A stretch of DNA of 58,013 nt, from contig WVYQ01000034.1 in NCBI GenBank assembly GCA_011772865.1, positions 154,572 through 212,584 on the forward strand, read 5' to 3'. This DNA is from Woeseiaceae bacterium (GTDB taxonomy: Bacteria > Pseudomonadota > Gammaproteobacteria > Steroidobacterales > Woeseiaceae). The notes beneath the pieces are model-generated. The model was not told where the DNA came from and did not search any database. It worked only from the letters and a program-made list of their open reading frames with translations. Below, piece by piece: positions 14,251 through 54,237 of the stretch. Position 1 is the first letter of the stretch, and every line of letters begins with the position of its first letter. The translations under genes were made by a program, and so were the position numbers.

Positions 14251-15228
14251 ATGAACCACTCGGTGCAGCTGCTCGGAATCAGCAACGCAATTGTAGACGT
14301 TCTTGCGCACATTGATGACACATTCCTGGGCAAGATCGGCGCCGTTCCCGGATCGATGACGCTCGTCGATATGGATCGCGCACGCGAAATCTACGCGAAC
14401 ATGGGCCCTGCAACGGAGATGTCGGGCGGGTCGGTTGCGAACACGATCGCCGGGTTCGCAAATTTGGGCGGTTCTGCGGCATACATTGGTCGGGTAAAAG
14501 CCGACCAGCTCGGCGGTATATTCAATCACGACATGCGCTCGCTCGGCGTGGATATTCGCCTGGCCGCAGCGACAAACGGCGCCCCAACGGCACGCAGCCT
14601 TATCCTGATTACAGCGGATGGCCAGCGTACGATGCAGACTTACCTCGGCGCATGCACCGAGCTCAGCACGGACGACATCACGCCCGAGAGCATGGGCAGC
14701 CCGAAAGCCGTATTGATCGAGGGCTACGTCTGGGATTTGCCGGAAGGTCCAGATCTCACGGCAAAAGCGATCGATATCGCGAAAAAGAACGGCACGGCCG
14801 TGGCATTGTCGCTGTCAGATTCGTTTTGCGTCGAGCGGCATCGCGATTCATTCAATCACGCCGTGCGTAACGGCGTCGACATCGTCGTGGCGGACGAGGA
14901 CGAAGTTAGCGCTTTGGTGCAGACCGAGGACTTCGACGACACACTGGATGCGCTCGACGCTTATGACAACCTCTTCGCGATCACGCGGTCGGACAAAGGT
15001 TCGGTTATCGTTCAAGGCGACGAGCGCATCGTACAGGCCGCAACGCCCGTCGACGAGGTTATCGATACGACCGGTGCGGGCGACGCATACACGGCAGGAT
15101 TCCTCTTTGGCTGGGTCAACGACAAGCCGCTCGCGGAGTGCGCAAAGATCGGTACGTTTTGCGGCACAACGGTTATTCAGCAAGTCGGCGCCCGGATCGA
15201 ACCCGGGCTGCTGGACAACTATTCCTGA
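14251..15228 (+). CDS. Adenosine kinase (PfkB/ribokinase family)
   Basis: The 325-residue sugar kinase has the N-terminal PfkB pattern (GGSVANTIAGFANLGGSAAYIGRVKAD) and the ATP/catalytic signature DTTGAGDAYTAGFLFG near residue 275, whose second Asp is the catalytic base. The sequence is of the bacterial adenosine kinase subgroup (MSGGSVANTIAG, HDMRSLGVDI) rather than ribokinase, which phosphorylates adenosine to AMP with ATP in the cytoplasm. In this window it would salvage adenosine imported by the CNT transporters. The gene is divergent from DUF4956 and its last 10 bases overlap the convergent PQQ dehydrogenase gene. Inosine-guanosine kinase is the main alternative. Confidence 0.82.
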   Translation: MNHSVQLLGISNAIVDVLAHIDDTFLGKIGAVPGSMTLVDMDRAREIYANMGPATEMSGGSVANTIAGFANLGGSAAYIGRVKADQLGGIFNHDMRSLGVDIRLAAATNGAPTARSLILITADGQRTMQTYLGACTELSTDDITPESMGSPKAVLIEGYVWDLPEGPDLTAKAIDIAKKNGTAVALSLSDSFCVERHRDSFNHAVRNGVDIVVADEDEVSALVQTEDFDDTLDALDAYDNLFAITRSDKGSVIVQGDERIVQAATPVDEVIDTTGAGDAYTAGFLFGWVNDKPLAECAKIGTFCGTTVIQQVGARIEPGLLDNYS

Positions 15229-17210
15229 GGCAGCGCAAAAGCGATCAGCTTGTCGTCGATTGGCAGGCCTATTCGCGAATTTCCGCCGGCATAGATCACG
15301 ACGTACTGGCGTTCCTCCCAGACGTAGGTCATCGGGGTTGCGTTGCCCGACGTCGGCAAGCGCCCTTTCCAGAGTTCCTCGCCAGTCTCGATACTGAACG
15401 CGCGCAGGTAATAGTCCAACGTGGACGCAATGAAGATGACGTCGCCTGCTGTCGCAATCGGGCCCCCGATCGTCGGCGTGCCGACCTCGAGCGGCAGGCC
15501 CACAAAGTCCTCGAGTGTGCCGAGAGCGCGTCGCCAGACGATCTGTCCCGAATCGACGTTGACGGCCGCGAGGACGCCCCACGGCGGAGGCGCGCAAGGA
15601 AGACCCAGGGGCGACAGCACGAGCGCGCGGCGATCCGAGAACGGCACGCCGTGCATGGGTTCGACATCGTCGTCCGGGTATTCCCGCCGGATGCGATCGA
15701 AGTCGCTTTGCGGGTACAGCGACACGGCATGCGCCATGCTGGACATGTTGATGACGAGCAGGTTGCGGCGAGGGTCGTAGGCTGCACCACCCCAGTTCGC
15801 TCCGCCTCCGGTAAACGGGTAAAACAGCGTCCCCTGGCGCGACGGGGGCGTGAATAACCCCTCCGCGCGCAGTCCGGCAAGTGCCTTTTCGCACGCCCGC
15901 TTGTCGAACCAGGTCAGCCCGAACGCATCGTCGGGATCGAGGGTGCTGGGCACGATCCCGGGGGTCGCCGTCGGTATCGGTTGCGTCGGTGACATCCTCT
16001 CACCGTCAATATCGGAAGCCGGCATCGGACGTTCCGCGACGGGTAGGAACGGTTTACCCGTGTCGCGATCGAGGACGAAAACATGACCGGTCTTGGTGAC
16101 CTGCGCCACAACATCATGCTGCTCGCCGTCACGCCACACCGTGTAAAGACCCGGTTGCGCCGGCAGGTCATAGTCCCATACGTCGTGGTGTACGACCTGG
16201 TAGGCCCAGCGGACCGATCCGTCCGATGCATCGAGCGCGACGACGGAATTGGCATGACGATTGTCGCCTGGCCGCCGGCCACCGTAGAAGTCCGGGCTCG
16301 GGCTCGACGTCGGCACGAATACGAGCCCACGCTCGTGATCCACGGACATCGGCGCCCATGCGTTTGCATGGCCCTCGACGGGCGGCTCGCTGCCTTGCCA
16401 GTCCGGACTGCCACTCTCGCGTGGGATTGGATCGAACTCCCACAGCGACTCGCCGCTCCGTACATCGAACGCCCTGACCGTTCCGTGCGGCGCAGTGACC
16501 CGCTGGTTGTCGGAAATCGACGAACCCACAACGACAAAGTTGCCGATCACAACGGGCGGCGAAGTGATCTGAAACTCGCCTGGCCAGATCAGCTCCATGC
16601 CGACATTCAGCTTAATCTCTCCGCCGGCGCCAAATGCCCGGCACGAAGCTCCGGTACGAGCATCAACGGCGATAATGCGGCCGTCATTCGTGCCCATCAG
16701 GATACGGGATGGACATTCGGGCGCGTCACCACTCCAGTGCACGACACCGCGGCACACGAATTTGTTGGCCGGCTGTTGGCCAAGGTCGATATCCGCGTCA
16801 AATCGCCATTGCTCGGATCCGGTTCCCGGATCCAGAGCGATGATTTCGTTGAACGGCGTGCAGAAGACGAGCTTGCCATCGACCAGTATTGGCGTGCCCT
16901 CGGTGATGCTGCTGCCCAGTCCGCGAACCTTATTGTCGAGATCGCCGGTGCTGAACTGCCAGGCCACCTCGAGCTTTGCAACATTGCTGGTATCGATCAA
17001 CGCCGCGGAACTGAATCGATGCCCGCCGGGATCGTTGCCATAATGCGGCCACCCCGGTGGGGGCAACTCGACGTCGCCACCGTGCATCTGCGCCACGCCC
17101 TCGATATCGAGTGCATGTGCGCCGAACAGGTAACGATAGCCGCTCCCGCCCAGCAGGATCATGATCGACGCGACGCCAACCAGCGCCAGCAGCCATTTCA
17201 GGGAGCGCAT
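15219..17210 (-). CDS. Membrane-anchored PQQ-dependent dehydrogenase (glucose/quinate dehydrogenase type)
   Basis: The 663-residue quinoprotein has one N-terminal membrane anchor (about residues 7-28) and an eight-bladed propeller. Family markers include WPHYGNDPGGHRFS at the start of the propeller, HANAWAPMSVDHERGLVFVPT, HHDVWDYDLPAQPGLY, VTKTGHVFVLDRDTG and NWGGAAYDP. It should oxidise a sugar or cyclic polyol in the periplasm and feed electrons to ubiquinone. It has only one anchor helix, unlike five in E. coli glucose dehydrogenase, and has no CxxCH haem site. No PQQ biosynthesis genes are in the window. It lies 146 bases downstream of the truncated ALDH gene on the same strand and may have its own promoter. 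Confidence 0.87.
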   Translation of the reverse strand: MRSLKWLLALVGVASIMILLGGSGYRYLFGAHALDIEGVAQMHGGDVELPPPGWPHYGNDPGGHRFSSAALIDTSNVAKLEVAWQFSTGDLDNKVRGLGSSITEGTPILVDGKLVFCTPFNEIIALDPGTGSEQWRFDADIDLGQQPANKFVCRGVVHWSGDAPECPSRILMGTNDGRIIAVDARTGASCRAFGAGGEIKLNVGMELIWPGEFQITSPPVVIGNFVVVGSSISDNQRVTAPHGTVRAFDVRSGESLWEFDPIPRESGSPDWQGSEPPVEGHANAWAPMSVDHERGLVFVPTSSPSPDFYGGRRPGDNRHANSVVALDASDGSVRWAYQVVHHDVWDYDLPAQPGLYTVWRDGEQHDVVAQVTKTGHVFVLDRDTGKPFLPVAERPMPASDIDGERMSPTQPIPTATPGIVPSTLDPDDAFGLTWFDKRACEKALAGLRAEGLFTPPSRQGTLFYPFTGGGANWGGAAYDPRRNLLVINMSSMAHAVSLYPQSDFDRIRREYPDDDVEPMHGVPFSDRRALVLSPLGLPCAPPPWGVLAAVNVDSGQIVWRRALGTLEDFVGLPLEVGTPTIGGPIATAGDVIFIASTLDYYLRAFSIETGEELWKGRLPTSGNATPMTYVWEERQYVVIYAGGNSRIGLPIDDKLIAFALPQE

Positions 17211-17356
17211 CGGTTCAGATCGGCCATGAGGCCGCAGCGCACGTCATGACCCGGCTCGGAGTCACGAAGATAGGCGTAGCGATCCCGGCTATCGCGATTG
17301 CCACAAGCAATCTCTGCCGCGCACCGCGGTGCGAGGCTGGATGCGTGTCGAGCGCG

Positions 17357-18235
17357 TTATACACCAATTGGATGCCAGGTCGTTTTGACTTCCTGCGTAT
17401 CTCTTATCAGGTACGGGTGTTGTGCGGATGATTTGAACCAGTCGGTCCTGGTTCTGGAAACGACGCGCTTGATGTTATCGGCGGCAGCATGTTGCAGCGA
17501 CTGCGCGGTCTTGCGGTCAGCATCGCAATAAATAATGGCATTCACATCCATGTGCGACGCAAACTGGCCCGTCAGCTCCGAGCGGTGTCCGGTCAGGATG
17601 TTGACGACGCCGCCCGGTACGTCCGAGGCATGTAGCACCTCGGCGAAACTGACCGCGCATAGCGGTAACTTTTCGGACGCCAGCACGATGCAGGTGTTAC
17701 CACCCACGATCGTCGGCGCGACATTGGATACCAGTCCGAGCAGTCCACTGTCGTTGGGCGCGAGCATCGAGACGACGCCCGTCGGCTCGAGAATCGAGAA
17801 ATTGAAGTGCGATGAACTGACCGGGTTTACAGCGCTGAATACCTGCTGATACTTGTCGGCCCAACCGGCAAAATAAATCAGCCGGTCGATCGACAAGTCG
17901 ACTTCTTTCTCCGCGGCGCGCTGCCCGACGCCTTGCAAAACGAGCTCGGCGATGAACTGGTCGCGCCGGCCTTCGAGCATTTCGGCGACGCGGTACAGGA
18001 CCTGGCCACGCAGATACGCAGAAGCCTTTGCCCAGCCGGGCTGCGCTTTCCGTGCAGCGACAACCGCATTGCGAAAGTCCTTGCGGCTGCTGCGGCAGAC
18101 ATTCGCGATCACCCCGCCTTTACTGTCTTCGAGCGCAAAATAGCGACCCGACTCGGTGCGCGGAAACTTGCCGTCGATATAAATCTTGTAGGTCTTTGCA
18201 ACGCTGAGGCGCTTGCTCCCCGATTTCTGAGCCAT
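17357..18235 (-). CDS. Truncated aldehyde dehydrogenase-like protein (ALDH16 C-terminal-domain type)
   Basis: The 292-residue protein matches the N-terminal, NAD-binding half of aldehyde dehydrogenases (YKIYIDGKFPRTESGRYF, WAKASAYLRGQVLYRVAEML, LEPTGVVSMLAPND, VSNVAPTIVGGNTCIVLASE) but stops before the region that would carry the catalytic Cys and the C-terminal half. It starts two bases after the stop of a complete ALDH, with GGAGG eight bases before its ATG. In the ALDH16 family, one chain holds a full ALDH domain followed by a second, truncated, catalytically dead ALDH domain; the combined length here (489 plus 292) matches that layout, split into two genes. The role may be structural, forming a heteromer with its neighbour. 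Its ATG is not in the reading frame of the upstream gene, so a simple missing stop would not fuse them. Confidence 0.8.
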   Translation of the reverse strand: MAQKSGSKRLSVAKTYKIYIDGKFPRTESGRYFALEDSKGGVIANVCRSSRKDFRNAVVAARKAQPGWAKASAYLRGQVLYRVAEMLEGRRDQFIAELVLQGVGQRAAEKEVDLSIDRLIYFAGWADKYQQVFSAVNPVSSSHFNFSILEPTGVVSMLAPNDSGLLGLVSNVAPTIVGGNTCIVLASEKLPLCAVSFAEVLHASDVPGGVVNILTGHRSELTGQFASHMDVNAIIYCDADRKTAQSLQHAAADNIKRVVSRTRTDWFKSSAQHPYLIRDTQEVKTTWHPIGV

Positions 18236-18237
18236 GT

Positions 18238-19707
18238 TTAAGCCTCCAGCCTCAGGTAAGCGTCGAGTCCGTGTAAACCGCCTTCACGCCCCATGCCGCT
18301 CTCTTTGTATCCGCCGAACGGTGATGTCGGATCGAACTTGTTGAACGTGTTGGCCCAGACCACGCCCGCGCGCACGCTCTGCGTCATCTTGAAGATCTTG
18401 GCGCCCTTGTCCGTCCAGACACCGCCGGAGAGCCCGTAGGGCGTGTTATTGGCCTTCGTCAGGGCCTCGTCAAACGTGCGGAAGGTCTGGATTGCGAGAA
18501 CAGGACCGAATATCTCCTCCTGCACGACACGATTCGACTGCGATACGCCGGTGAATAGCGTCGGCCGGCACCAGTAACCCTTATCCGGAACGGGACAGGA
18601 GCTCTGGTACATTTCCCCGCCTTCTCCCTGGCCGATGGCGAGATAAGACTCGATTGTGTCGAGCTGCTGCCTAGAGTTGATGGCGCCGATGTCCGTATTC
18701 TTGTCGAGCGGGTCGCCGACGATCAGGGTTTCCATGCGATCCTTGAGCTTCTGGATCACCTCTTCGGCAACCGATTCCTGCACGAATAGCCGCGAACCGG
18801 CGCAGCAGACATGCCCCTGGTTGAAGAAGATTCCATTGATGATTCCTTCGACCGCCTGGTCGATCGCCGCATCGGCAAAAATGATGTTCGCCGCCTTGCC
18901 GCCGAGCTCGAGCGTGTACTTCTTGTTGGTGCCGGCAAGGGCTTGCTGAATAATGCGCCCGACCTCGGTCGACCCGGTGAATGCAATCTTGTCGACGCCC
19001 GGATGGTTGACAATGGCGGCGCCCGTTTCCCCGGCGCCGGTGACGATGTTGACGACACCATCGGGAATTCCTGCGTCGGCAACGACCTCGGCGAGCTTCA
19101 TCGCGGTCAGCGGCGTGGTTTCCGCAGGCTTGAGCACGACCGTATTTCCGCAGGCCAGCGCCGGAGCAATCTTCCAGGCCGCCATCAGCAACGGGAAATT
19201 CCAGGGAATGATCTGTCCTGCCACGCCGAGCGGCCGAGCCTTGCGGCCCGGGAACGCGTATTCGAGCTTGTCGGCCCAACCCGCGTAGTAAAAAAAGTGA
19301 GCAGCCGCCAGCGGCACATCCACGTCACGGGATTCGCGAATCGGTTTGCCGCCATCGAGCGATTCGATGGCGGCGAACTCACGACTGCGCTCCTGCATGA
19401 TGCGGGCAATCCTGTAGATATACTTGCCGCGCTCCGCCGGCTTCATGCGTACCCACGGACCGTAAGCCTTGCGGGCCGCTTTGACGGCCTTGTCGACGTC
19501 TGCGTCCGACGCCAGCGCGACGCGACTCAGTTTTTCCTCGGTCGCCGGATTGACCGTATCGAAATACTTGCCCTTCTCCGGCGCGACAAAATCGCCGCCA
19601 ATGAACAGTCCGTACCGTTTCCTGACCTTGATGTGATCGGTGCTCTCGGGGGCGGGCGAATACTGCCAGCCAGCGTCGAAAGCCAATTTGTTTTCGGGGG
19701 TCGCCAT
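18238..19707 (-). CDS. NAD(P)-dependent aldehyde dehydrogenase (catalytic, ALDH16 N-terminal-domain type)
   Basis: The 489-residue enzyme is a complete ALDH: PWNFPL with Asn170, FTGSTEVG at 243-250, the base Glu267 in LELGGK and the nucleophile Cys301 in NQGHVCCAGSR are present, followed by EIFGPV and a C-terminal oligomerisation tail. Because it directly follows deoC (35 bases), its probable substrate is acetaldehyde from deoxyribose-5-phosphate cleavage, oxidised to acetate. The same pairing with a truncated ALDH in the next gene points to the ALDH16 family. A broader aldehyde range is possible. No signal peptide is present. Confidence 0.9.
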   Translation of the reverse strand: MATPENKLAFDAGWQYSPAPESTDHIKVRKRYGLFIGGDFVAPEKGKYFDTVNPATEEKLSRVALASDADVDKAVKAARKAYGPWVRMKPAERGKYIYRIARIMQERSREFAAIESLDGGKPIRESRDVDVPLAAAHFFYYAGWADKLEYAFPGRKARPLGVAGQIIPWNFPLLMAAWKIAPALACGNTVVLKPAETTPLTAMKLAEVVADAGIPDGVVNIVTGAGETGAAIVNHPGVDKIAFTGSTEVGRIIQQALAGTNKKYTLELGGKAANIIFADAAIDQAVEGIINGIFFNQGHVCCAGSRLFVQESVAEEVIQKLKDRMETLIVGDPLDKNTDIGAINSRQQLDTIESYLAIGQGEGGEMYQSSCPVPDKGYWCRPTLFTGVSQSNRVVQEEIFGPVLAIQTFRTFDEALTKANNTPYGLSGGVWTDKGAKIFKMTQSVRAGVVWANTFNKFDPTSPFGGYKESGMGREGGLHGLDAYLRLEA

Positions 19708-19742
19708 TGTTGTTCGCGGCTACAGCCGCTCCTGTTCTTTAT

Positions 19743-20669
19743 CTAGTCTTTCGAAAAATAATCCGGTGACTGGTACACGCCGGTCTTCTGCTTTTGCAGT
19801 TGCATCAGGACGTCGTTGGCCAGCGAACTGGCGCCGAAGCGGAACCAATCCGGCGTCATCCAGGCATTGCCGAGCGTTTCCCGAAGCATCACGAGGTAAT
19901 GCACGGCCAGCTTGGCGCTCGAGATCCCGCCGGCTGGCTTCATGCCGACCATACGGCCCGTGTCGTAATAATAATCCCGAATCGCCTGCAGCATGACCAG
20001 CGTGACCTGCATTGTTGCAGCCGGCTGGATCTTGCCGGTCGAGGTCTTGATGAAATCGGCGCCGGCGTGCATCGCCAGGACGCTGGCCTTGCGCACCCGA
20101 TCGAGCGTGCCGAGTTCGCCGGTTTCGAGGATGACCTTGAGGTGCGCGTCGCCGCAAGCTTCCTTGATTGCCACGATCTCGTCGAAAACGCGGCCGTGGT
20201 GGCCGGCCAGGAATTCGCCGCGCGAAATCACCATGTCGATTTCATTGGCACCCGCCGCGACGGCCATGCGCGTGTCCTCGAGCTTGACCGAAAGCGGTGC
20301 CTGGCCGCTCGGAAACGCAGTCGCCACGGACGCAATATTGATGTCGCGACCGGCCAGTGCTTCCCTCGCAACGCCGACCATGGTCGGGTACACACACACC
20401 GCTGCGACATGCGGCAGGTCCGGCAGCGCATCATGCAGGTGAATCGCCTTCTGGCACAGTTGTCGCACCTTGCCCGGTGTGTCCTGACCCTCCAGTGTCG
20501 TCAGGTCAATCATCGACAGGACAAGCTTCAGCGCCTCGATCTTCGACGCCGTCTTGATGCTGCGACTCTGGAAGCGCGCCACGCGTTCGTTGACACCGAC
20601 CTCGTCGACCGCGGGAACCGCGCTCAGGTCCGGGAGGCGCGTGGTGGTGTCTACAGCAGTCAGGCTCAT
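19743..20669 (-). CDS. deoC: Deoxyribose-phosphate aldolase DeoC
   Basis: The 308-residue class I aldolase has the Schiff-base lysine K208 in FIKTSTGK, the second active-site lysine K244 in GMKPAGGI, and the proton-relay Asp145 in NEIDMVIS; KVILETGEL is also typical. It splits 2-deoxyribose-5-phosphate into glyceraldehyde-3-phosphate and acetaldehyde in the cytoplasm. It is about 50 residues longer than the E. coli enzyme at the N-terminus, as in the longer DERA branch that includes the animal enzyme. It lies 11 bases after deoD and before the ALDH gene, so deoxyribose of purine deoxynucleosides can be converted to GAP and acetate by one operon once DeoB (encoded at 51798-53000) isomerises the phosphate. 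Confidence 0.96.
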   Translation of the reverse strand: MSLTAVDTTTRLPDLSAVPAVDEVGVNERVARFQSRSIKTASKIEALKLVLSMIDLTTLEGQDTPGKVRQLCQKAIHLHDALPDLPHVAAVCVYPTMVGVAREALAGRDINIASVATAFPSGQAPLSVKLEDTRMAVAAGANEIDMVISRGEFLAGHHGRVFDEIVAIKEACGDAHLKVILETGELGTLDRVRKASVLAMHAGADFIKTSTGKIQPAATMQVTLVMLQAIRDYYYDTGRMVGMKPAGGISSAKLAVHYLVMLRETLGNAWMTPDWFRFGASSLANDVLMQLQKQKTGVYQSPDYFSKD

Positions 20670-20680
20670 CGTCTCTTGCC

Positions 20681-21388
20681 TCAGGCGATTACCGTTTCCA
20701 GCGCCACGAGGACCATTTCATCGAACGTCGTCTGCCGCTCCTCGGCCGACAGGTGGGCACCCGAGGGAATGTCGTCGCTAACCGTGCAAATCGCCAGCGC
20801 CTCGGCATCGTGCTCTGCCGCAATCGGATAGATCCCGGCGGCCTCCATTTCGATGCCGTAGACGTTGTAGCGCGCCATCGTGTCAAACATTGCCGTGTCA
20901 GGCGTGTAAAAAAGATCGGCCGAGAACAGGTTGCCGACATGGTGCCGGACCTTGTGGCGCTCGGCGGCGGCGACCGCCTTGCTGACGAGGTCGAAGGTCG
21001 CTATCGCGGCATAGTCGTAGCCGCCGAACCGGATGCGATTGATGTTCGCATCCGTGCACGCCCCGAGCCCGATGATGATGTCCCGGAGTTTTACGTCAGG
21101 GTGCGAGGTTCCGCAGCTCCCGACCCGGATGACGCGCCGCACGCCGTACTCCGCAATCAGCTCGGTGGCATAGATCGACGCGGATGGAATGCCCATGCCG
21201 TGCGCCATGACCGACACCGGATGTCCCTTGTAGGAACCCGTGAATCCCCACATGTTGCGCACGTCGGTGACGCGTCGCGCGTCGTCGAAATAGCTGTCAG
21301 CAATGTATTGCGCCCTGAGCGGATCGCCCGGCATCAACACAGTTTCGGCGAAATCCCCGGGCGCAGCGTTCATGTGCTTGGTGGCCAT
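20681..21388 (-). CDS. deoD: Purine nucleoside phosphorylase DeoD
   Basis: The 235-residue protein is colinear with hexameric DeoD of enteric bacteria: MATKHMNA with the active-site His5, [14 protein letters not shown] with the phosphate-binding Arg25, [50 protein letters not shown] and TVSDDI with the catalytic Asp. It phosphorolyses (deoxy)adenosine, inosine and guanosine to base plus (deoxy)ribose-1-phosphate. I start at the ATG at 21388; the longer upstream reading has no similarity. It is the first gene of deoD-deoC-ALDH-truncated ALDH and is divergent from a TonB receptor gene across 115 bases. Confidence 0.96.
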
Positions 21389-23741: not shown

Positions 23742-23760
23742 GTCCCGCGCATTGCGTAGT

Positions 23761-25739: not shown

Positions 25740-25740
25740 A

Positions 25741-32600: not shown

Positions 32601-32608
<8 letters not shown>
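31730..32608 (+). CDS. Beta-ureidopropionase (carbon-nitrogen hydrolase)
   Basis: This 292-residue nitrilase-superfamily amidohydrolase has the catalytic triad Glu51 (FQEVF), Lys125 (GKYRKTHIP) and Cys163 (GIYICYDRHFPE). In this operon it should hydrolyse N-carbamoyl-beta-alanine (from uracil) and N-carbamoyl-beta-aminoisobutyrate (from thymine) to the beta-amino acid, CO2 and ammonia, the last step of reductive pyrimidine breakdown. N-carbamoylputrescine amidase is the main alternative by sequence, but the neighbours dihydropyrimidinase, PreT and PreA decide for the pyrimidine role. GGGGGA is well placed before the ATG. It is the first gene of the pyrimidine operon and overlaps the NCS1 gene by eight bases. 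Confidence 0.9.
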
Positions 32609-35518
<2,910 letters not shown>

Positions 35519-40358: not shown

Positions 40359-40502
40359 TTATCGCTTGTCGAGCGTAACGTCGCGCACGCCGCCATTCGA
40401 GTTCGCAAGGCACAAGACTTTTGCAGCGTGGCCTCTCGGTAACGTAAGCGTTGCGACAACCGCTACTCTGATCGGGCCTTCGGTTTTCCTGTCAATGCTC
40501 AT
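40359..40502 (-). CDS. Small ORF of 47 codons, coupled to ribokinase
   Basis: The frame starts at an ATG whose bases overlap the TGA of the ribokinase gene (ATGA), the same coupling used between other genes of this operon, and ends seven bases from the end of the convergent TPR gene. The product begins MSIDRKTEGPIRVAVV, has a mildly hydrophobic middle and ends in charged residues (RDVTLDKR). I recognise no family and there is no obvious signal peptide or membrane segment. It fills a 146-base gap that would otherwise be empty. It may be a real small protein or chance; codon choice is less GC-biased than in its neighbours. Confidence 0.35.
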   Translation of the reverse strand: MSIDRKTEGPIRVAVVATLTLPRGHAAKVLCLANSNGGVRDVTLDKR

Positions 40503-45788: not shown

Positions 45789-45816
45789 ATTAGTGCGTGC
45801 TTTATTCTGGCAATTG

Positions 45817-45845
45817 GCTATAGTTGAGTTTAAGACAGCGGGCAA
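45817..45845 (-). promoter_or_regulatory. Candidate sigma-70 promoter of the PhyH-deoA-CNT-NH-rbsK operon
   Basis: On the minus strand a -35-like TTGCCC (45840-45845) and a -10-like TATAGC (45817-45822) are separated by exactly 17 bases, each with four of six consensus bases. The start of transcription would fall near 45810, about 22 bases before the ATG of the dioxygenase gene. It is the only well-spaced pair I find in this 107-base divergent gap. Confidence 0.4.
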
Positions 45846-45895
45846 TTAATCGAAATTGCTACGCGGTCCGACATTATCCACTTGGGGGATTAAGA

Positions 45896-48085
45896 ATGAA
45901 GAAGAAAAACCTTGGCGTCTATCTGTGGGCGCCTGTTCTGACCACCCTCGCCCTGCCACAACTCGCACTCGCACAGGATGACGGGGACGACAGGTTCGAG
46001 GAAATCACAGTTACCGCAACCAAGCGCGAGGAAAGCATCTACGAAGTTCCGATCGCAATGAGTGCCTTCACGGGCGACAACCTGGCAACACAGGGCATTA
46101 CCGACCTCACCGACATTGGCAAATTTGTGCCAAACATGAATGTAACCGGATTCTCGGCAGGTCACGTCTCCTCGGTTAATCCGTTCATTCGCGGCATCGG
46201 CCTGCAGGATCACCTGATCCTGACGGACCCGGGCGTCAGCGTCTATGTCGACGGCGTTTATCTCGGCCGCCAGGTGGGCCAGAACTGGAGCCTCTCGAAC
46301 ATCGATCGCGTCGAAGTACTGCGCGGCCCGCAAGGGACACTGTACGGACGTAACTCGATTGGTGGCGCTATCAACATCATCACGAAAACCCCCGGTTCAT
46401 TCGAGGGGGCAAGAGTAGGCCTCGAAGTGGGTTCGCGAGGCCGCCTGAATGGTGACTTCTACGGCGACGCGAACTTGTCAGACAACCTCGCCGTGTCGTT
46501 TACCGGCGGCTACAAGAGCCGCGACGGGCTTGGCAAGTTTGTCAACCTGCCGAACGCCGATGTCGAAGTCGGCGAATCGCAGGAAGTGTTCGGCAGATTG
46601 GCGTTCCGTTACGCGACGGATAACTTTTCGATCGTCGTCGCGGCAGACGCCAATGATCTGAGGGGCGGTTTGCGTCCGTACACGACTCTGATCGATGAAC
46701 TCGGTGCCGAATGTCGCGCGACAGCGCCGAACCCGGCCGTGGATTGCATAGACATCAATGGCCCTGTGTATGAGGCCGGCTATCGCAACTCCGATGTCGC
46801 CAGCGATCCCTACGACAACAACACGGGCCAGCAGAGCCAGACCCACGTCAGCAACGCAGCCGAGGGCCTGTCGGTCACGGCCGACTGGGACTTCAACAAT
46901 AATCTTGCCGGCAAGATCATCGCGAGCACGCGTCATTCCGAGTACAAGTCGGGTCTCGACGACGATGCTTTCTTCGATGACTTCCTGTCGTTCCCGGAAA
47001 CCGGCGAGGCCGACCAGGACTCGTTCGAATTCCAGCTGAGCGGCGACTTCGGCGGGTGGGATTTTGTCGGCGGCCTCTACTACTTCACGGAAGAAGGTGA
47101 AAACCGCCAGGTCGATTACACGTTCAACGGTGGTGCCCCAAGCTTCTTCCTCGTTGACCAGGACGTGACTAGCCAGGCCATTTACGCCAATGTCGGCTTC
47201 GATGTCTCTGATTCGTTCCGGATCGCGGCTGGCGCGCGGTACACCGAGGACGAGAAAGACGCATTCACGCAATGCTGCATCAACCCGCAGGATGACGGGT
47301 CCGCAGACTTCGACGAGCTGAGCTGGGAACTTTCGGCTAACTGGGACGTGGGCGATAGCATGAGCATGTACGCTGCAGTCCAGAGCGGCTACCAGTCGGG
47401 CCAGTTCCCGGCGCGGCCGTTTTGCCTGTTCGGCGTTCCGGAATGCTTCCAGGCCACCGACAACATCACCGCGATCAACTACGAAGTCGGCCTCAAGGGC
47501 GAGATCGGCGGCTGGATGCAGATGAGCGCGGCGATCTTCAACACCGACTACTCGGATCTGCCCTACCAGGTCAGCACGACAGGAGGCGGCGGTTTCTCCA
47601 CGGTCAATCTCGTCGTTGACCAGACCTCGTTCGGATTCGAGTGGGAAAGCACGATGTACTTCAGCGACGACTTCCTGTTCCACGCGACGCTCGGTTACAT
47701 CGATGTTGACGTGGATCAACAGCAAGGCGTGAAACCGGTCGCGCCGCTGACGCCAGAGCTAACGTATTCCCTGAGTCCGGAATACCGTATTTCGCTCTCC
47801 AGTGGAGCGACTGTAACGTTCCGCGCGGACTACGCGTATCGCGATGAGATGTGGGGTGAGCCGAGTTCCGACCCTGGGCGCTTTACGAAAATCGAGGACC
47901 GCAGCATCCTCAACGCAAACATCGCTTATCGCACGCCTGACGACAGCATGACCGTGGCACTGTATGGCCGCAATATCAGCGATGAGCGCTATTCGAACGC
48001 GAAGCTGAATACAGACACTTATGTCCTGCAAATCATGAGCAATGACGCGAGTGAATTCGGCATCAGCATCGTCAAGGATTTCTGA
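45896..48085 (+). CDS. TonB-dependent outer-membrane receptor (third)
   Basis: The 729-residue protein has a signal peptide ending LALAQDD, a TonB box (EEITVTATKREESIYEVP), a plug with VEVLRGPQGTLYGRNSIGGAINIITKTPG, and a barrel ending in VKDF. An ATG at 45896 with GGGGGAT upstream is the correct start. It is divergent from the dioxygenase-deoA operon and upstream of the lipoprotein deaminase homologue, so it probably imports a nucleoside-related compound. It shares the VTATKRE-type box with receptor 21504-23741 but is a separate lineage by sequence. Confidence 0.9.
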   Translation: MKKKNLGVYLWAPVLTTLALPQLALAQDDGDDRFEEITVTATKREESIYEVPIAMSAFTGDNLATQGITDLTDIGKFVPNMNVTGFSAGHVSSVNPFIRGIGLQDHLILTDPGVSVYVDGVYLGRQVGQNWSLSNIDRVEVLRGPQGTLYGRNSIGGAINIITKTPGSFEGARVGLEVGSRGRLNGDFYGDANLSDNLAVSFTGGYKSRDGLGKFVNLPNADVEVGESQEVFGRLAFRYATDNFSIVVAADANDLRGGLRPYTTLIDELGAECRATAPNPAVDCIDINGPVYEAGYRNSDVASDPYDNNTGQQSQTHVSNAAEGLSVTADWDFNNNLAGKIIASTRHSEYKSGLDDDAFFDDFLSFPETGEADQDSFEFQLSGDFGGWDFVGGLYYFTEEGENRQVDYTFNGGAPSFFLVDQDVTSQAIYANVGFDVSDSFRIAAGARYTEDEKDAFTQCCINPQDDGSADFDELSWELSANWDVGDSMSMYAAVQSGYQSGQFPARPFCLFGVPECFQATDNITAINYEVGLKGEIGGWMQMSAAIFNTDYSDLPYQVSTTGGGGFSTVNLVVDQTSFGFEWESTMYFSDDFLFHATLGYIDVDVDQQQGVKPVAPLTPELTYSLSPEYRISLSSGATVTFRADYAYRDEMWGEPSSDPGRFTKIEDRSILNANIAYRTPDDSMTVALYGRNISDERYSNAKLNTDTYVLQIMSNDASEFGISIVKDF

Positions 48086-48106
48086 TCTGGCCAAATCGGA
48101 AAAACG

Positions 48107-48133: not shown

Positions 48134-48189
48134 TTTTCGCGCGTTGCATTCGTGGAGCCGATGCTACAATTGCCCGAAGAGGAGCCCGA

Positions 48190-49593
48190 ATGACAAGAAT
48201 AACCACCTGTTTCACAACGCTTTTCCTCGCTATCAGCTTGGCAGCCTGCCAGGCGCAGGAGTCCATCGACCTGATCGTCGAAGGCGATCACGTCGTCACG
48301 ATGGATAGCGACATGACTGTGATCGAAAACGGCGCGGTCGCAATCGATGACGGCGTGATCCTTGAGGTCGGTGCGGCAAGTGATATCAGCGAGGCCTACT
48401 CCTCGAGCACCACCCTGCCAGGCGCCAATCGGATCGTCATGCCGGGGCTCGTCAACGGCCACTCGCATGCCGCGATGACGCTGCTGCGCGGCGTCGCCGA
48501 CGACCTGGCGCTCATGGACTGGCTCAACAACTACATCTTCCCGGCCGAGGTCGAGTTCGTCGACGCAGAATTCGTGCGCATCGGCACCGAGCTCGCGTGC
48601 TGGGAGATGATTCGCGGCGGGACGACGACGTTCGTCGACATGTACTACTACCCGGACACGATTGCCGAGGTCGTCGACAGCTGCGGCATGCGCGCGCTGA
48701 TCTCGGCAACCGTCATCGATCAGCGCAGCCCGGATGCCGAGGACGCGGCCGACTCCATTCGTAAGGGCAACGGCTTCATTGAGCGCTGGCTGGACAAGAA
48801 CCCTCGCATTACGCCGATTTTCGGCCCCCATGCCAACTACACGTTGAACGCCGAGCAGCTACAGGCAACGCGAGAAGCGGCGATGCAGTATGGCGTGCCC
48901 ATCAGCATTCACATGTCGGAGTCGCCATTCGAGGTGCAGTATTCGAAAGACACCTACGGCATGACGAGTATCGAGCTGTTCGAGTCGATCGGGTTCTTTG
49001 ACGGGCCGACGATCGCCGCCCACGTCGTCTGGCCGACAGATGCTGAAATCCCGATTCTTGCCGAGCGCAACGTTGGCGTCATCCACAACCCGACGTCGAA
49101 CATGAAAATCGCGTCGGGAATCTCGCCGGTCGCCGACATGCTCGCGGCCGGTGTGCGTGTCGGGCTCGGCACCGATGGCGCCGCGAGCAACAACGACCTC
49201 GATATGTGGGAGGAAATGCGTCTCGCCGCCTTTCTGCAAAAGGTCGAGCAAATGAACCCGGAAGTCTTGTCTGCGGAGACGGTTCTGCGCATGGCAACCA
49301 GCGGCGGGGCGGCGGCGATCGGTCTCGGCGACACGATCGGCTCGCTCGAGGCCGGCAAGCGCGCCGACCTGATCCAGGTCGCGTTCGAGGATATTCACCA
49401 CATTCCGACCTACGACGTCGTGTCGCACCTCGTCTACGTCAACGACGAGCAGGATGTGGCGTCGGTCGTGGTTGACGGTGTCGTACTCATGAACGAACGC
49501 GAGATGTTGACCATCGACACCGACCGGGTCGCCCGCGAAGCGGCCGAACTCGCCGCACGCATTCAAGCTGCACTCGACGAGAGGAACCAGTAA
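48190..49593 (+). CDS. MTA/SAH-deaminase-family amidohydrolase with lipoprotein signal
   Basis: The 467-residue protein has a lipobox signal (LFLAISLAAC, Cys20), and then a complete TIM-barrel amidohydrolase of the MtaD type: H91 and H93 in NGHSHAAM, FGPHANYTLN, SIHMSESPFEV, IAAHVVWPTD and GTDGAASNNDLDMWEEMRLA. Cytoplasmic relatives deaminate methylthioadenosine, S-adenosylhomocysteine or adenosine to the inosine form. A lipoprotein signal in this family is unusual and predicts deamination of adenine nucleosides outside the inner membrane before uptake. Lipobox and barrel are in one frame with no sign of a gene fusion. The true substrate is not known; other members deaminate guanine or triazines. 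Confidence 0.85.
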   Translation: MTRITTCFTTLFLAISLAACQAQESIDLIVEGDHVVTMDSDMTVIENGAVAIDDGVILEVGAASDISEAYSSSTTLPGANRIVMPGLVNGHSHAAMTLLRGVADDLALMDWLNNYIFPAEVEFVDAEFVRIGTELACWEMIRGGTTTFVDMYYYPDTIAEVVDSCGMRALISATVIDQRSPDAEDAADSIRKGNGFIERWLDKNPRITPIFGPHANYTLNAEQLQATREAAMQYGVPISIHMSESPFEVQYSKDTYGMTSIELFESIGFFDGPTIAAHVVWPTDAEIPILAERNVGVIHNPTSNMKIASGISPVADMLAAGVRVGLGTDGAASNNDLDMWEEMRLAAFLQKVEQMNPEVLSAETVLRMATSGGAAAIGLGDTIGSLEAGKRADLIQVAFEDIHHIPTYDVVSHLVYVNDEQDVASVVVDGVVLMNEREMLTIDTDRVAREAAELAARIQAALDERNQ

Positions 49594-49991: not shown

Positions 49992-51805
49992 TCGCACTCG
50001 AAATCGTCCTCCCCGAGGGGGCGGCACTGCGGCGGGAAGCCGGCCTCGCGCCAGTACTCGAATACTCCCGACTCGCGGATGAAGTACTTGAACTCGGCAC
50101 TTTGCCGGTAACGTTGCATCATCGGGTCCCACAGCACGAGGGGCTCGGGCGTCCGCCAGCCCGTGCCGATCGGGTGGACGATGAAACTGCCAATTTCCAG
50201 CAGCCCTTCGTTATTCGTAGCCAGGTAGTCGCGAATCGACTCGATCAGCTCGCCGTGGTCCTGGCCGGGATCGAGATAGGCCTGCCACAGCTCGTCGTGA
50301 CGCCGCCAGCCGCGCAACATGAAGTGGCCGTTCGTAGCCGTCTTGAACGCCAGTTCCTGGCCGGTGCGGGCCAGCGACGGGAAGTAAGCGAACTCCACCT
50401 TCGCGGAACTCGTGTTCAGGGCCTCGAGATATGCCGCGTTCGACGCCTCGTCGTCGCCGAGGGCGCCGAGCACCGCAATGTAGTTCTCGGCGCAGGGCCG
50501 GTAGTACGGCTCGTAGCGGATACAGGCTTCGAAGTCCGCCAGCGCCGACTGCAGGTCGCCAGCAAGCACGTAGGTCAGGCCGCGCCAGGTCAGGGCCTCG
50601 GCATTGCGCGGCTGGATCGCCAGCGCCCGGTCGTAGCTCGCAATGATCCCGGCGATGTCATAACGGCCTGACAGGCCCCTGGCGTTCACGCTTTTGATAT
50701 GGCCAATAACCGCAATCGCGGTGGCGCTGTCCGGCTCGAGCTGTATCGCGCGGTTGGCATATTCGGTGGCGCGCTGCCGGGACTCCTCCAGCGTCGTGTC
50801 GACGTAGCCGTATTCCCTGGCCAGCAACTGTAACGCCGCGCGCACTTCCCAGGCTTGTGAGAACCCCGGGTCGAGCTCGACCGCACGCGCCAGCAGCTCA
50901 TCGGCAACGTCCAGGTCGACGCGATCGTGAAACATCGGCATCGCCTGCAGGAACAGCTCGTAGGCATCGAGGTTGCGGGTCGTTATCGCCACGTGGACCG
51001 GCTCGATGCGGCCCACGCCGAGCGCATCGCTCAGCGCGGCAACGATTGCATTGGCAATGTCGTCCTGGATTTCGAATATATTCTCGGCCGTCAGCGGCCG
51101 GTCGTAGGTGTCCGACCACAGGTGCTTGTCGTCGCTCGAGTCGATCAGCTGCGCAGTCACGCGAATCGTGCTGCCGGACTTTCTTACCGATCCTTCGAGC
51201 ACATGGCGGACCTTGAGTTGTGCGGCAATCTCCGGGATGCCGAGCTCGCGGCCCTTGAACTGGAACGACGACGTCCGCGACGTGACATCCAGTCCGTCCA
51301 CGCCGACGAGGACATTGAGAATCTCCTCTGAAATGCCGTCGGAGAAGTACTCCTGGTCGCCCGCCGGAGACAGGTCGGCAAACGGCAGCACCGCAATCGA
51401 CGTGTCGTCGACCGGGCCTCGCTCCGCGCTGGTCGCTGCTTCCCCTGGCGACTCGGGCGCATCGGACAGCTGCTGCCAGACGATCATGGCGCCAAGCAGC
51501 GCCAGGCCGACGATGATCGCAACGTCAAGCTTTCGTCCCGTAAGCTCGGTGATGCTTTGGCCTTCCGGCACCGCCTCGGTTCGCACGACGCCTTCGGGGG
51601 TCAGTTCGAACGCCCAGGCAAAAATCACCGCGACGGGCAGACCGATGATGAGCAGCGCCACGATCAGCCCGTCGAACCACGCCGGCAGCCCGATGGCTTC
51701 TTCGAGCGTCGTCGCCACCTGCGCCAGTAACCAGCCGACGACGACATAGACGCCGGCAACGCGAAACACGTTGCGGCGCTTGAGTTCGGCGAACAGCTTA
51801 TTCAC
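49988..51805 (-). CDS. Membrane-anchored TolB-like domain protein with TPR repeats (copy 2)
   Basis: The 605-residue protein has the same plan as 38514-40352: [27 protein letters not shown], helices near 17-34, 45-66 and 92-110, a TolB-like domain ([28 protein letters not shown], about 135-250) and TPR repeats from about 285 ([43 protein letters not shown]). The repeats are better preserved than in copy 1. It overlaps deoB by eight bases and is the last gene of the minus-strand set that starts with the cytochrome oxidase genes. A stress or envelope-sensing role has been suggested for related proteins, but nothing here proves it. Confidence 0.78.
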
Positions 51806-53000
51806 TCAGGAAGCTCGTTCCGTACTCGGTCGGCGGCAGGTCGAAAAATGCTGCGACGGTCTGACCGATGTCGGCGAAGGTCTCCCGTTTGCCGAGCGCG
51901 CCAGGCTCGATGCCCTTGCCGTAAGCAAGAACCGGGATACGTTCACGCGTATGGTCGGTGCCCTGCCAGGTGGGGTCGCAGCCGTGGTCGGCGCACAGAA
52001 ACAGGATGTCATCATCCTGCATCACTTCGAGCAGCTCGGGCAGCCGCGAGTCGAAGTACTCGAGCGCTTCTGCGTAACCATCGATGTCGCGCCGGTGGCC
52101 ATAGAGCATGTCGAAATCGACGAAATTGGTGAAGACAATCGACCGATCGCCGGCATCTCGTAGCGCGTCGAGCGTCGCATCGAAAAGCGCTGCATTGCCG
52201 GTCGCCTTGACCTTCTTCGTGATGCCCTTGTGCGCATAGATGTCGGCGATCTTGCCGATGCTGATCACATCCCCGCCCGCCGCGACAAGCTTGTCGAGCA
52301 CCGTGTCCGCGTGCGGCGGCGTCGTCAGGTCGCGGCGGTTGCCCGTGCGTACATACGTGTCCGGACTGTCCCCGACGAACGGACGCGCAATAACGCGGCC
52401 GATCTTGTACTCATCGACGAGTTCCCTCGCGATGTCACAAAGCGCATACAGCCGGTCGAGGCCGAACGCCTCTTCGTGCGCGGCGATCTGGAACACGCTG
52501 TCGGCCGAGGTGTAGAAGATCGGTTTGCCCGTGCGCACGTGCTCGTCGCCGAGTTCGGCGATGATGGTCGTGCCCGACGCGTGGCAGTTACCGAGATAGC
52601 CGGGCAGATTCGCGCGCTCCACGAGCGCATCGAGCAATTCCGCCGGGAAGGTGTTCTCCCTGTCGGTAAAGTAGCCCCAGTCGAACATTACCGGCACACC
52701 GGCGATCTCCCAGTGCCCGCTCGGCGTGTCCTTGCCGCTCGAGAGCTCCTCGGCAAAACCGTATGCCCCCACGATATCGACATCGGCTTCGGCGCCAGCC
52801 GGGAACTTGCCCGTGCTGTCCCGGCTCGCATGATAGAGCCCGAGCCTGGCCAGGTTGGGAAGCGTCAGCGGCGTGCCGGCCGCGGCGCGCTCGCGCGCTA
52901 TGTGGCCGAACGTATCCGACCCGGCGTCACCAAATCGATCGGCATCATCGGTAGCGCCGATTCCGAAGGAGTCGAGCATGAGGATGATGGCTCTACCCAT
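51798..53000 (-). CDS. deoB: Phosphopentomutase
   Basis: The 400-residue enzyme begins [25 protein letters not shown], with Asp10 as a metal ligand, and has [12 protein letters not shown] with the phospho-accepting Thr, [28 protein letters not shown] and [19 protein letters not shown], all of the DeoB family. It interconverts (deoxy)ribose-1-phosphate and -5-phosphate, joining DeoA and DeoD to DeoC. The ATG at 53000 is clear; the longer reading adds antisense-like residues. It follows the second CNT gene by seven bases. It is the one deo gene that is transcribed with the respiratory genes. Confidence 0.96.
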
Positions 53001-53007
53001 AGGTCCC

Positions 53008-54237
53008 TCAAGCCGCCTGCAAAGCAAAGAACAGCCCTGCAAGCGAGGCATTCATCAGGTTGACGAGTGTACCCCCAATCACGGCCCTGAGACCAAGTCT
53101 TGCAATGTCGTGACGTCGCTCCGGCACGATCGCCCCTAGCCCGCCGAGCAGAATGGCGATCGAGGAAAGGTTGGCGAAGCCGCACAGAGCAAACGTTACG
53201 ACCAGCTGTGTCTGTGGCGACAGCGTCTCCTTGATCCCGACGAAATTCACGTAGGCATAGAACTCGTTAATGACGAGCTTCTGGCCGATCAGGCTCCCTG
53301 CCTCCGCCGCCTCGCCCCACGGCACGCCGATCACGAGCGCGACCGGGAAGAACAGCTTGCCGAGCAGCCACTGCAAGGTAAGCCCCTCCATGCCGAACCA
53401 GCCGCCGATACCGGTCAGGATGCCGTTGATCACGGCTACTATCGCGACGAAGGCCACAAGCATCGCGCCAACACTGAGCGCGACCTGGAGGCCGGTCATC
53501 GCACCGTTGCCAATCGCCTCGAAGATGTTGACAGGCGGGTCTTCGTCGCCGGTGTATTTTGGATCGAACGCGATCTGTCGCTGCTCGGTCTCGGGCATCA
53601 TGATCTTGGCCATCAGCAGTCCGCCAGGGGCCGCCATGAAGCTTGCGGTGATCAGGTATTTCAGGTCGACGCCGAGTTGTGCGAAGCCCATCATCACGGC
53701 GCTGGCGATCGTCGCGCATCCGCCAACCATTACGGCAAAAAGCTCGGACTGCGTCATGTCCTTGAGGTATGGCCGGATCACGAGAGGCGCATCGGTATGG
53801 CCCACAAAGATATTGGATACCGCCGAGATCGACTCGGGCTGGCTCGTGCCGAGCAGCTTGTGCAGCCAGCCGCCCAGCGTACCGACAACACGCTGCATGA
53901 TGCCGAGGTAATAAAGCACCGACATCATGGCGCCGATGAAGACGATTACGGGAAGCACGTTGAGCGCCACGGTAAAACCGAGGTTTTGCTCGAAGTTTTC
54001 GCCAAAGACGAACCTGATTCCGTCCTTCGCATAATTGATCACGTGCTGGACAGCACGAACCGCCGCATTGAGTGCCTGGCCCCCCTGGGGCACGTAGAGA
54101 ACCAGTGCGGCGATGCCCGACTGGATGGCGACAGCGACGAGTACCGTGCGGCGGTTAATGGCGGCGCGGTTGGTCGATAGCAACCAACCGATGCCGAGCA
54201 TCGCAAGGACGCCCGCGATGCTGACGAGGATGGTCAC
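53008..54237 (-). CDS. CNT (NupC)-family nucleoside transporter, copy 2
   Basis: The 409-residue protein is a CNT nucleoside carrier: [72 protein letters not shown]. It starts with GTG immediately after the TAG of the cytochrome oxidase subunit IV gene (TAGGTG), so it is cotranscribed with the oxidase. It shares the overall pattern with copy 1 but has many substitutions, so the two probably differ in nucleoside preference. Confidence 0.94.

Follow-up and report, generated by a model that had tools for sequence, protein, structure and literature searches.

Gene content of the island

We analysed a stretch of 58,013 nucleotides (hereinafter, the window) from the genome of a Woeseiaceae bacterium (GenBank assembly GCA_011772865.1, contig WVYQ01000034.1; G000:C13:154572-212584 in our numbering), an assembly of 3.26 Mb in 46 contigs that is 85% complete. 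Open reading frames (ORFs) were listed, most candidate genes were scanned against Pfam and NCBIfam, and some were also compared with PDB sequences. A preliminary description of this DNA, made from the letters and translations, had proposed that the window holds a dedicated island for the use of nucleic acids. The gene inventory that it gave for 14251..54237 was recovered in place, with most genes scoring above the curated cut-offs, and all three outer-membrane receptors were recognised by Pfam (Table 1). As detailed below, the gene content and the pattern of gene retention support a module for nucleic-acid breakdown products that is kept together in the genus, with a compact core in a sister family.

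Some of the earlier assignments required adjustment. The lipoprotein with a nuclease/phosphatase fold is a member of the EEP superfamily, but it is not an ExeM/NucH DNase, an identity ruled out by its NF033681 score (18.8 bits against a cut-off of 300). Similarly, the phosphatase described as P4-type is a P4-like lipoprotein of the PF03767 family that falls below the cut-off of the e(P4) family proper. Ribokinase, NCS1 and CNT1 (the last by 3 bits) also pass Pfam while scoring below their NCBIfam cut-offs, and CNT2 passes both. The xanthine-to-allantoate genes are indeed found left of 6811, XdhC, PuuD and 5-hydroxyisourate hydrolase by Pfam and XdhA and XdhB by translation, and the purine route runs on past the left edge of the window, with the rest of PuuE, a UraD-like ORF (called by eye), a putative allantoicase ORF (called from its position only), ureidoglycolate lyase and guanine deaminase. 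We place the left end of the island at guanine deaminase, some 3.7 kb outside the window, and its right end at CNT2, which ends at 54237; the total is about 58 kb. Beyond guanine deaminase lie transport genes and then a hut operon; right of CNT2 there is a cytochrome oxidase (cox) cluster, read from translations.

Table 1. Annotated genes of the window, with the evidence for each assignment
Feature	Position	Strand	Evidence and remarks
PuuE-type allantoinase / polysaccharide deacetylase	3..542	-	PF01522 9.3e-08; cut by window edge, continues in L034
PuuD-type membrane urate oxidase	431..1618	-	PF06181 1.6e-131
XdhC	1620..2420	-	PF13478, PF02625; start picked by us within ORF 1620-2957
XdhB, xanthine dehydrogenase large subunit	2666..4963	-	translation reading only; present in 5/5 spanned relatives
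XdhA, xanthine dehydrogenase small subunit	4947..6467	-	translation reading only; present in 5/5 spanned relatives
5-hydroxyisourate hydrolase	6464..6811	-	PF00576 6.4e-35 on ORF 6464-7585
Adenosine kinase-like PfkB kinase (adoK)	14251..15228	+	PF00294; closest PDB chain 3ubo (adenosine kinase), E 6.6e-92
Short aldehyde dehydrogenase (ALDH)	17357..18235	-	PF00171, profile 12-233 of 461 (about half)
Aldehyde dehydrogenase (ALDH)	18238..19707	-	PF00171 3.4e-165; acetaldehyde from DeoC a presumed substrate
DeoC, deoxyribose-phosphate aldolase	19743..20669	-	TIGR00126, above cut-off
DeoD, purine nucleoside phosphorylase	20681..21388	-	TIGR00107, above cut-off
TBDT1, TonB-dependent receptor	21504..23741	+	PF00593, PF07715
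orf24, lipoprotein, unknown family	23760..24684	+	no Pfam match
EEP-fold lipoprotein, candidate nuclease/phosphodiesterase	24690..25739	+	PF19580, PF03372
TBDT2, Oar-type outer-membrane receptor	25786..28995	-	PF25183, PF13620
5'-nucleotidase lipoprotein	29285..30892	-	PF02872, PF00149; lipoprotein-like start
P4-like acid phosphatase lipoprotein	30870..31670	+	PF03767 8.1e-20; TIGR01533 118 bits, cut-off 216
Beta-ureidopropionase (bup)	31730..32608	+	PF00795; PDB 2vhh 2.9e-58 (best), 8pt4 6.2e-56, 6ftq
NCS1 nucleobase/allantoin-type transporter	32601..34082	+	PF02133 2.4e-92; TIGR00800 322 bits, cut-off 353
Dihydropyrimidinase (dhp)	34076..35518	+	TIGR02033 602 bits, above cut-off
PreT-type dihydropyrimidine dehydrogenase subunit	35537..36842	+	PF14691, PF07992; assigned from family and adjoining PreA
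PreA dihydropyrimidine dehydrogenase subunit	36838..38106	+	NF006183, above cut-off
Cytidine deaminase (Cdd)	38106..38501	+	TIGR01354, above cut-off
Ribokinase-like PfkB kinase (rbsK)	40499..41356	-	PF00294; below TIGR02152 cut-off
Nucleoside hydrolase (nh)	41353..42300	-	PF01156 1e-99
CNT1 nucleoside transporter	42305..43528	-	PF07662, PF01773; TIGR00804 439 bits, cut-off 442
DeoA, thymidine phosphorylase	43591..44904	-	TIGR02643, above cut-off
PhyH, PHYHD1-type 2-oxoglutarate dioxygenase, predicted 2'-O-methyl nucleoside demethylase	44904..45845	-	PDB 2opw 1.5e-63
TBDT3, TonB-dependent receptor	45824..48085	+	PF07715
Exported lipoprotein deaminase, MTA/SAH/adenosine deaminase group	48190..49593	+	PF01979; TRZ/ATZ type; PDB 4f0r 2.7e-96
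DeoB, phosphopentomutase	51798..53003	-	TIGR01696, above cut-off
CNT2 nucleoside transporter	53008..54237	-	TIGR00804 461 bits, above cut-off 442

The best PDB match of the beta-ureidopropionase, 2vhh, is presumably the fly beta-alanine synthase; 8pt4 and 6ftq, which rank after it, are chains named beta-ureidopropionase.

Gene order and retention among relatives

Gene order was mapped by tblastn in 16 relatives and 80 named loci, each of which shows the fetched part only. The named loci come from a comparison of an alignment of 14 exported-deaminase sequences with named genomes, which matched 247 stretches, 221 of which are relatives; the best 80 of the 221, which were the ones mapped, are mostly titled Woeseiaceae, Woeseia or unclassified (Gamma)proteobacteria metagenome-assembled genomes (MAGs), and the top two among them are Woeseiaceae MAGs with 88% identity. 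CNT relatives were found in 46 of 60 related genomes. The common order in the left half is xdh-puu, adoK, ALDH-ALDH-deoC-deoD, TBDT1, orf24, EEP, TBDT2 and the nucleotidases, followed in the right half by the pyrimidine (pyd) cassette, cdd, rbsK-nh-CNT1-deoA-PhyH, TBDT3, the deaminase, deoB, CNT2 and cox. Gain and loss are cassette-like: bup-NCS1-dhp-preT-preA is missing from the stretches of four relatives (G022, G005, G021 and G007). In G057, a member of a sister family in the same order, a contiguous array adoK-ALDH-ALDH-deoC-deoD-TBDT1-deaminase-deoB-CNT2 is found, and the fetched part of G044, from the same family, agrees with it; in both, TBDT1 is the receptor that adjoins the exported deaminase. 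Three named loci (L148, L149 and L152) retain adoK-nh-CNT1-deaminase beside cox. The preliminary description had called for such a comparison and staked its proposal on linkage beyond this genome; among the 16 relatives and 80 named loci, the genus keeps the linkage, and the sister family keeps a compact core of it.

Conserved order is not special to the island because two 60 kb control windows of the same genome, anchored on purA and pyrG and compared with the relatives identically, are just as well conserved. The number of ORFs found per relative is 12-23 of 38 and 14-30 of 45 for the controls and 8-29 of 36 for the island; some of the compared stretches stop at contig ends, and the automatic ORFs include some spurious ones. 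Linkage per se was therefore dropped as strong evidence. The special feature of the island is which genes get lost, namely, the passengers and not the nucleic-acid genes. Counted over the covered spans of 11 relatives, nucleic-acid genes are retained in 179 of 227 cells compared to 18 of 63 for passenger genes (Fisher P 2.6e-13, which is no true probability because the genomes are related); with all 16 relatives, the counts are 232/320 and 25/88. The retention table includes 13 of the 16 mapped relatives (G036, G051 and G044 were excluded as short), 11 of which enter the headline count. Because CNT1 is a paralogue of CNT2 (about 48%), one could be counted as the other; without them, the contrast in the 11 relatives is 168/216 to 18/63. 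The passengers are GMC, gluconate dehydrogenase subunit 3, RidA, a metallophosphatase, three uncharacterised ORFs, a pyrroloquinoline quinone (PQQ)-dependent dehydrogenase and two TPR proteins. The receptors, orf24 and a small membrane ORF were assigned to neither class, and the three receptors are retained in 14 of 30 cells in the 11 relatives.

The density of receptors is a weaker signal: 29 PF07715 plugs were found genome-wide and 2 in these 40 kb, compared to an expectation of 0.36 (Poisson P ~0.05), with TBDT2, which has no PF07715 match, outside the count. Receptor density alone is weak, and the gene content with the retention pattern is the stronger argument against chance.

The short ALDH, although it covers only about half of the Pfam profile, accompanies the full-length gene in 8 of 9 spanned relatives. 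The match to deoC in the G030 and G027 islands is partial (36-39%), and a distant aldolase may substitute. The PQQ-dependent dehydrogenase of the glucose/quinate family (15219-17210, minus strand), between adoK and the ALDH genes, is absent from 8/8 spanned relatives and may have been inserted recently; the G044 stretch has a 47% relative at another place. Two membrane TPR-type proteins within the island (38514-40352, plus strand, and 49988-51805, minus strand) were each found in 0 of 13 spans; relatives of the second (61-69%) occur in L075, L092 and L110, and the first occurs in none of the loci mapped. A pair consisting of a gluconate dehydrogenase subunit 3-like protein and a GMC oxidoreductase (6878-9140, plus strand), between the purine genes and adoK, is kept in 3 of 6 spanned relatives.

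The dioxygenase, the exported enzymes and the receptors

PhyH heads a minus-strand operon in which its stop codon overlaps the start of deoA (TGATG), CNT1 follows 62 bases after deoA, nucleoside hydrolase comes after another 4 bases, and ribokinase overlaps the hydrolase by 4. Its best PDB match is PHYHD1 (2opw, residues 35-308), far ahead of EvdO2 (1.2e-20) and phytanoyl-CoA dioxygenase (2a1x, 1.9e-09); we take 2opw and 2a1x to be human proteins. Canonical nucleoside hydrolases grip the 2'- and 3'-hydroxyls of ribose, so that nucleosides with a 2'-O-methyl group, as released from rRNA and tRNA, would have to lose it first. A 2025 study (PMC12709175) reports, in the available text, that PHYHD1 and its bacterial relatives demethylate free 2'-O-methyl nucleosides using 2-oxoglutarate, several bacterial homologues being active demethylases, and cites special hydrolases that accept 2'-O-methyl nucleosides; the ribose contacts derived there from docking are K102, H105, Q139 and W277, with base stacking by F161, a Tyr in bacterial enzymes. 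K102, H105, Q139, H156 and D158 are shared by all 38 distinct full-length PhyH relatives; W277 and the distal His are found in 37, each replaced by a gap in one sequence, and residue 161 varies between Tyr (27 sequences) and Phe (11). The H-X-D...H iron triad is formed in the PhyH of the window by H182, D184 and H269. Conservation does not extend to S154, a reported purine contact, which is V in this protein. The genome encodes two further PF05721 proteins, in which the iron triad is kept and the K, H, Q and W positions are all unmatched (in a weak alignment with one gap at Q). We predict that PhyH is a PHYHD1-type 2'-O-methyl nucleoside demethylase.

The conservation of this gene was assessed in a set of 97 sequences less 15 taken as duplicates, one of which, L104, was assigned to G028, itself outside the set, so that no duplicate of it remained. 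Of these sequences, 46 contained deoA and 32 had complete deoA loci, 25 of them with PhyH; the exported deaminase is present in 31/32, a biased count given that most named deoA loci were retrieved via the deaminase. A class-wide search at E 1e-50 found PhyH in 2 of 275 genomes, namely, this one and another of the same genus.

It is rather unlikely, yet the strongest of the alternatives considered here, that the substrate of PhyH is not a 2'-O-methyl nucleoside: the protein could be a pyrimidine deoxyribonucleoside 2'-hydroxylase that feeds the nucleoside hydrolase, or it could act on a biosynthetic substrate. Pyrimidine deoxyribonucleoside 2'-hydroxylase activity occurs in fungi, and a different substrate would fit the translational coupling of PhyH to deoA, the varied names of PF05721 relatives in PDB and the placement of one plasmid relative among methyltransferases. 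However, the closeness to PHYHD1, the conserved ribose contacts and the activity of several bacterial homologues, as presented in the available text of PMC12709175, all favour demethylation.

Several exported proteins would act upstream of these cytosolic enzymes. The exported deaminase has the lipobox Cys in nearly all of the 14 aligned sequences and invariant H91, H93, H214, H241, E244, H278 and D329, which we take to be the amidohydrolase ligand set; the closest solved structure is a 5'-methylthioadenosine/S-adenosylhomocysteine (MTA/SAH) deaminase (4f0r). Lipoprotein-like signals also start the EEP protein, the 5'-nucleotidase, the P4-like protein and orf24. Under the rule established in E. 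coli, Asp after the lipobox Cys governs lipoprotein sorting and its lack suggests the outer membrane; Asp is found at this position in none of the five lipoproteins of the window, which are therefore predicted to be placed in the outer membrane. In the EEP lipoprotein, N35, E117, H205, D241, N243, D289, D337 and H338, presumably the active site, are invariant among 8 sequences, and no match to a PDB sequence was found with the single sequence or with a profile. In G030 and G027, orf24 and EEP form one ORF (644 and 627 aa, respectively) that matches both. As a separate observation, L138 (10001-11416) encodes a 69% identical exported deaminase on a Holophagae-binned contig with no nucleoside neighbours seen, a case of transfer or misbinning.

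A clear ExeM/NucH DNase with a lipoprotein-like start (judged by eye) is encoded outside the window, at G000:C13:238537-240195, 29.7 kb past CNT2 (NF033681, 512.8 bits, cut-off 300). Such a DNase is present in 12 of 15 relatives, and in 7 of these it shares the contig, at a distance of 21-44 kb from CNT2 (deoB in the case of G027), whereas in 5 it is on other contigs; in 3 relatives none was found. In view of the background synteny, the linkage of the DNase to the island carries little weight by itself. Endonuclease_1 and S1/P1 nuclease searches of the same genome yielded none.

TBDT1 is distantly related to TBDT3 (27% identity), and TBDT2 is of the Oar type. Among 369 genomes of the class, relatives of TBDT2 at E 1e-120 were found in this genome and in three genomes of one genus from another family. 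All three carry a CNT-like gene (32-35% to CNT2, tblastn) at 0.20-0.26 kb from the receptor, two of them also carry another (51-52% to CNT1) about 1.2 kb off on the opposite side, and in G304, the only one of the three that was scanned, a gene of the uridine kinase Pfam family is next. In a Halieaceae MAG (L142), a 54% relative of TBDT2 is located within a nucleoside locus that contains dihydropyrimidinase, an NCS1 piece at the edge, a TetR/YcdC-like regulator, DeoD, 5'-nucleotidase, S1/P1 nuclease, adenosine deaminase, the exported deaminase and uracil phosphoribosyltransferase. In a plasmid collection, 22 records match TBDT2. In all 12 Pseudoalteromonas records (receptor identity 38-40%, in one case 31%), an S1/P1 nuclease gene is one or two genes upstream and UshA is within 10 kb, judged by annotation for 10 records and by tblastn for the 2 unannotated ones. 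The remaining ten records are at 24-32% identity, and two of these have a weak UshA-like stretch nearby (21-25%). Seven of the 22 records (H19, H20, H23, H24, H26, H27 and H33) lack annotation, and for them the calls come from tblastn with window-derived queries only. On two Bacteroides plasmids (L221 and L224), a distant Oar-type receptor adjoins an EEP-family gene, much as TBDT2 and EEP are neighbours in the window, on a Parabacteroides plasmid an ectonucleotide pyrophosphatase lies near the distant receptor, and in Spirosoma a phospholipase C adjoins a second such receptor. These contexts support a nucleotide-related role for the close relatives of TBDT2; more widely, the family perhaps handles phosphoester substrates. 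Both the PHYHD1-type identity of PhyH and the cross-lineage context of TBDT2 are additions to the preliminary description.

An alternative is that the exported nuclease and nucleotidases serve in the first place to capture phosphate, with the cytosolic genes recycling the cell's own nucleosides, which would be compatible with the use of carbon and nitrogen as well. The 5'-nucleotidase, the P4-like phosphatase and EEP all belong to phosphoesterase families, and the distant Bacteroides and Parabacteroides receptors adjoin other phosphoesterases; nevertheless, carbon and nitrogen catabolism with two CNT transporters and NCS1 in the island would then be superfluous, and no phosphate transporter or Pho regulator was detected among the island proteins scanned. 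We consider phosphorus as the primary purpose unlikely.

A probable nucleic-acid scavenging module and known systems

Taken together, these results make it quite probable that the island is a clustered nucleic-acid scavenging module of Woeseiaceae. From the gene families, operon overlaps, retention, residue fingerprints and cross-lineage receptor context, we infer its substrates, localisation, regulation and flow. Under this model, the lipoprotein DNase, and possibly the EEP lipoprotein too, would cut the polymer, the 5'-nucleotidase and P4-like lipoproteins would strip phosphate, and the exported deaminase would work on adenosine-type nucleosides. The TonB receptors would carry nucleotides, nucleosides or short oligomers over the outer membrane, and CNT1, CNT2 and NCS1 would take up nucleosides and bases. 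The PHYHD1-type enzyme would strip 2'-O-methyl groups so that the nucleoside hydrolase and the phosphorylases can act; DeoA, DeoD, DeoB and DeoC with aldehyde dehydrogenase would burn deoxyribose, and ribokinase would take ribose. Pyrimidines would be burned by Cdd with PreTA, dihydropyrimidinase and ureidopropionase, and purines by guanine deaminase, Xdh and PuuD onwards. Such a flow could sustain growth on DNA or RNA.

Several observations weigh against this reading. Synteny of the whole region is not higher than in the purA and pyrG windows, the receptor slots are variable (TBDT2 in 6 of 12 and TBDT3 in 5 of 13 spans), and some 30 kb separate the island from the sole clear secreted DNase found. 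The exported deaminase is likewise present in L138 and L145, where no nucleoside gene was seen among the ORFs scanned (6 of 8 and 2, respectively). PhyH is missing from 7 of the 32 complete deoA loci, is not significantly tied there to nucleoside hydrolase (Fisher P 0.16), and has as its sole plasmid relative an Azospirillum protein (43%) encoded among methyltransferases, not nucleoside genes; co-occurrence with ribokinase or preA in deoA loci is not significant either. The 12 Pseudoalteromonas records represent one lineage and count as one event, three plasmid records (two Bacteroides and the Parabacteroides) have other phosphoesterases, and 5 of the 22 (Sphingomonas, Spirosoma, Novosphingobium, Sphingobium and Persicobacter, the last three judged by tblastn only) have no nuclease or nucleotidase nearby. 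Finally, dyad and 8-mer enrichment detected no shared operator in the island, yielding only promoter -10-like boxes and words common to divergent neighbours, and no island protein scanned with Pfam and NCBIfam matched a regulator family. The preliminary description had likened the island to a polysaccharide utilisation locus (PUL); the likeness lies in the joint presence of receptors, exported hydrolases, inner-membrane transporters and catabolism, with no regulatory counterpart detected in these searches. One of the -10-like boxes, TGCTACA, about 30 bases upstream of the exported deaminase (window ~48161), is present in 11 of 15 genomes compared.

That the island is an ordinary conserved neighbourhood, in which housekeeping salvage and nitrogen-recycling operons were adjacent in the ancestor, rearrangement was slow and the receptors are unrelated (iron, vitamins, peptides), is improbable: the equally conserved controls, the marginal receptor density, the variable receptor slots and the lack of a common operator fit it, but passengers are lost while nucleic-acid genes stay, sister-family loci retain the nucleoside genes with TBDT1, and TBDT2 relatives in other lineages adjoin nuclease, nucleotidase or CNT-like genes. 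The three alternatives exclude neither one another nor the scavenging module.

More tentatively, with somewhat less than even confidence, we propose two things jointly. TBDT2 would represent an Oar-type family of TonB-dependent receptors that take nucleic-acid breakdown products and that Woeseiaceae have in common with Pseudoalteromonas, the Halieaceae MAG and a further gammaproteobacterial family, and the island would encode a complete natural route for living on RNA, in which a PHYHD1-type enzyme first demethylates the 2'-O-methyl nucleosides derived from rRNA and tRNA. If so, feeding on nucleic acids would be a central trait of a group that ranks among the commonest bacteria of the seafloor. 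The diet of Woeseiales is little known, and should the island work as proposed, they would be direct players in the recycling of sedimentary DNA and RNA. Two testable assignments follow, one giving a TonB receptor family nucleotides or oligonucleotides as substrates, the other giving PHYHD1-type demethylation of 2'-O-methyl nucleosides an operon context in bacteria. In marine sediment surveys, Woeseiales account for 1-22% of the retrieved 16S sequences (PMC7082342, available text). By term search of the available texts of three Woeseiales papers (PMC7082342, PMC7451513 and PMC12175321), 'nuclease' and 'purine' are absent, and the passages with 'nucleic' or 'nucleotid' are methods, legends, data statements and references, none on nucleic-acid catabolism.

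Comparison with known systems places the island among several partial counterparts. Among the matches listed from the open-access PMC literature, no TonB receptor for nucleosides was found by title or abstract start, and in the available text of a review of TonB-dependent receptors (PMC11658791), the passages on 'nucleoside' concern the Tsx porin. With PULs of the SusCD type, the island shares an outer-membrane TonB receptor, exported hydrolases and catabolism; it differs in that no SusD-family match was detected in the island proteins scanned, no local regulator was found, and the target is nucleic acid. The extracellular-DNA route of Vibrio cholerae likewise leads from secreted nucleases to nucleotidases and NupC nucleoside carriers, but the OmpK pore is named there for the outer membrane and TonB is mentioned 0 times in the available text (PMC4723616). 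PhyH resembles the PHYHD1/FJS demethylases in its PHYHD1-type sequence and matching ribose-contact residues; the bacterial enzyme of that study came from a soil metagenome library and 'genomic context' occurs 0 times in its main text (PMC12709175), whereas here PhyH heads a nucleoside operon in many related genomes. The nearest precedent, compared by gene kinds only and from the available text, is provided by the DNA-degradation loci of Ca. Izemoplasmatales, which Wasmund et al. (PMC8289736) themselves compared with PULs. As in the island, an extracellular nuclease (about 30 kb off in our case), further nucleases and phosphohydrolases, and transporters are clustered, and genes for xanthine dehydrogenase and purine deaminase are also co-located. 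The Izemoplasmatales loci have ABC transporters, whereas the island has TonB receptors, lipoproteins, CNT and NCS1 carriers and the PuuD route, along with the reductive pyrimidine pathway, DeoABCD and the PHYHD1-type enzyme as extras. The concept itself is thus known, and the island is a TonB-equipped version of these published DNA-degradation loci.

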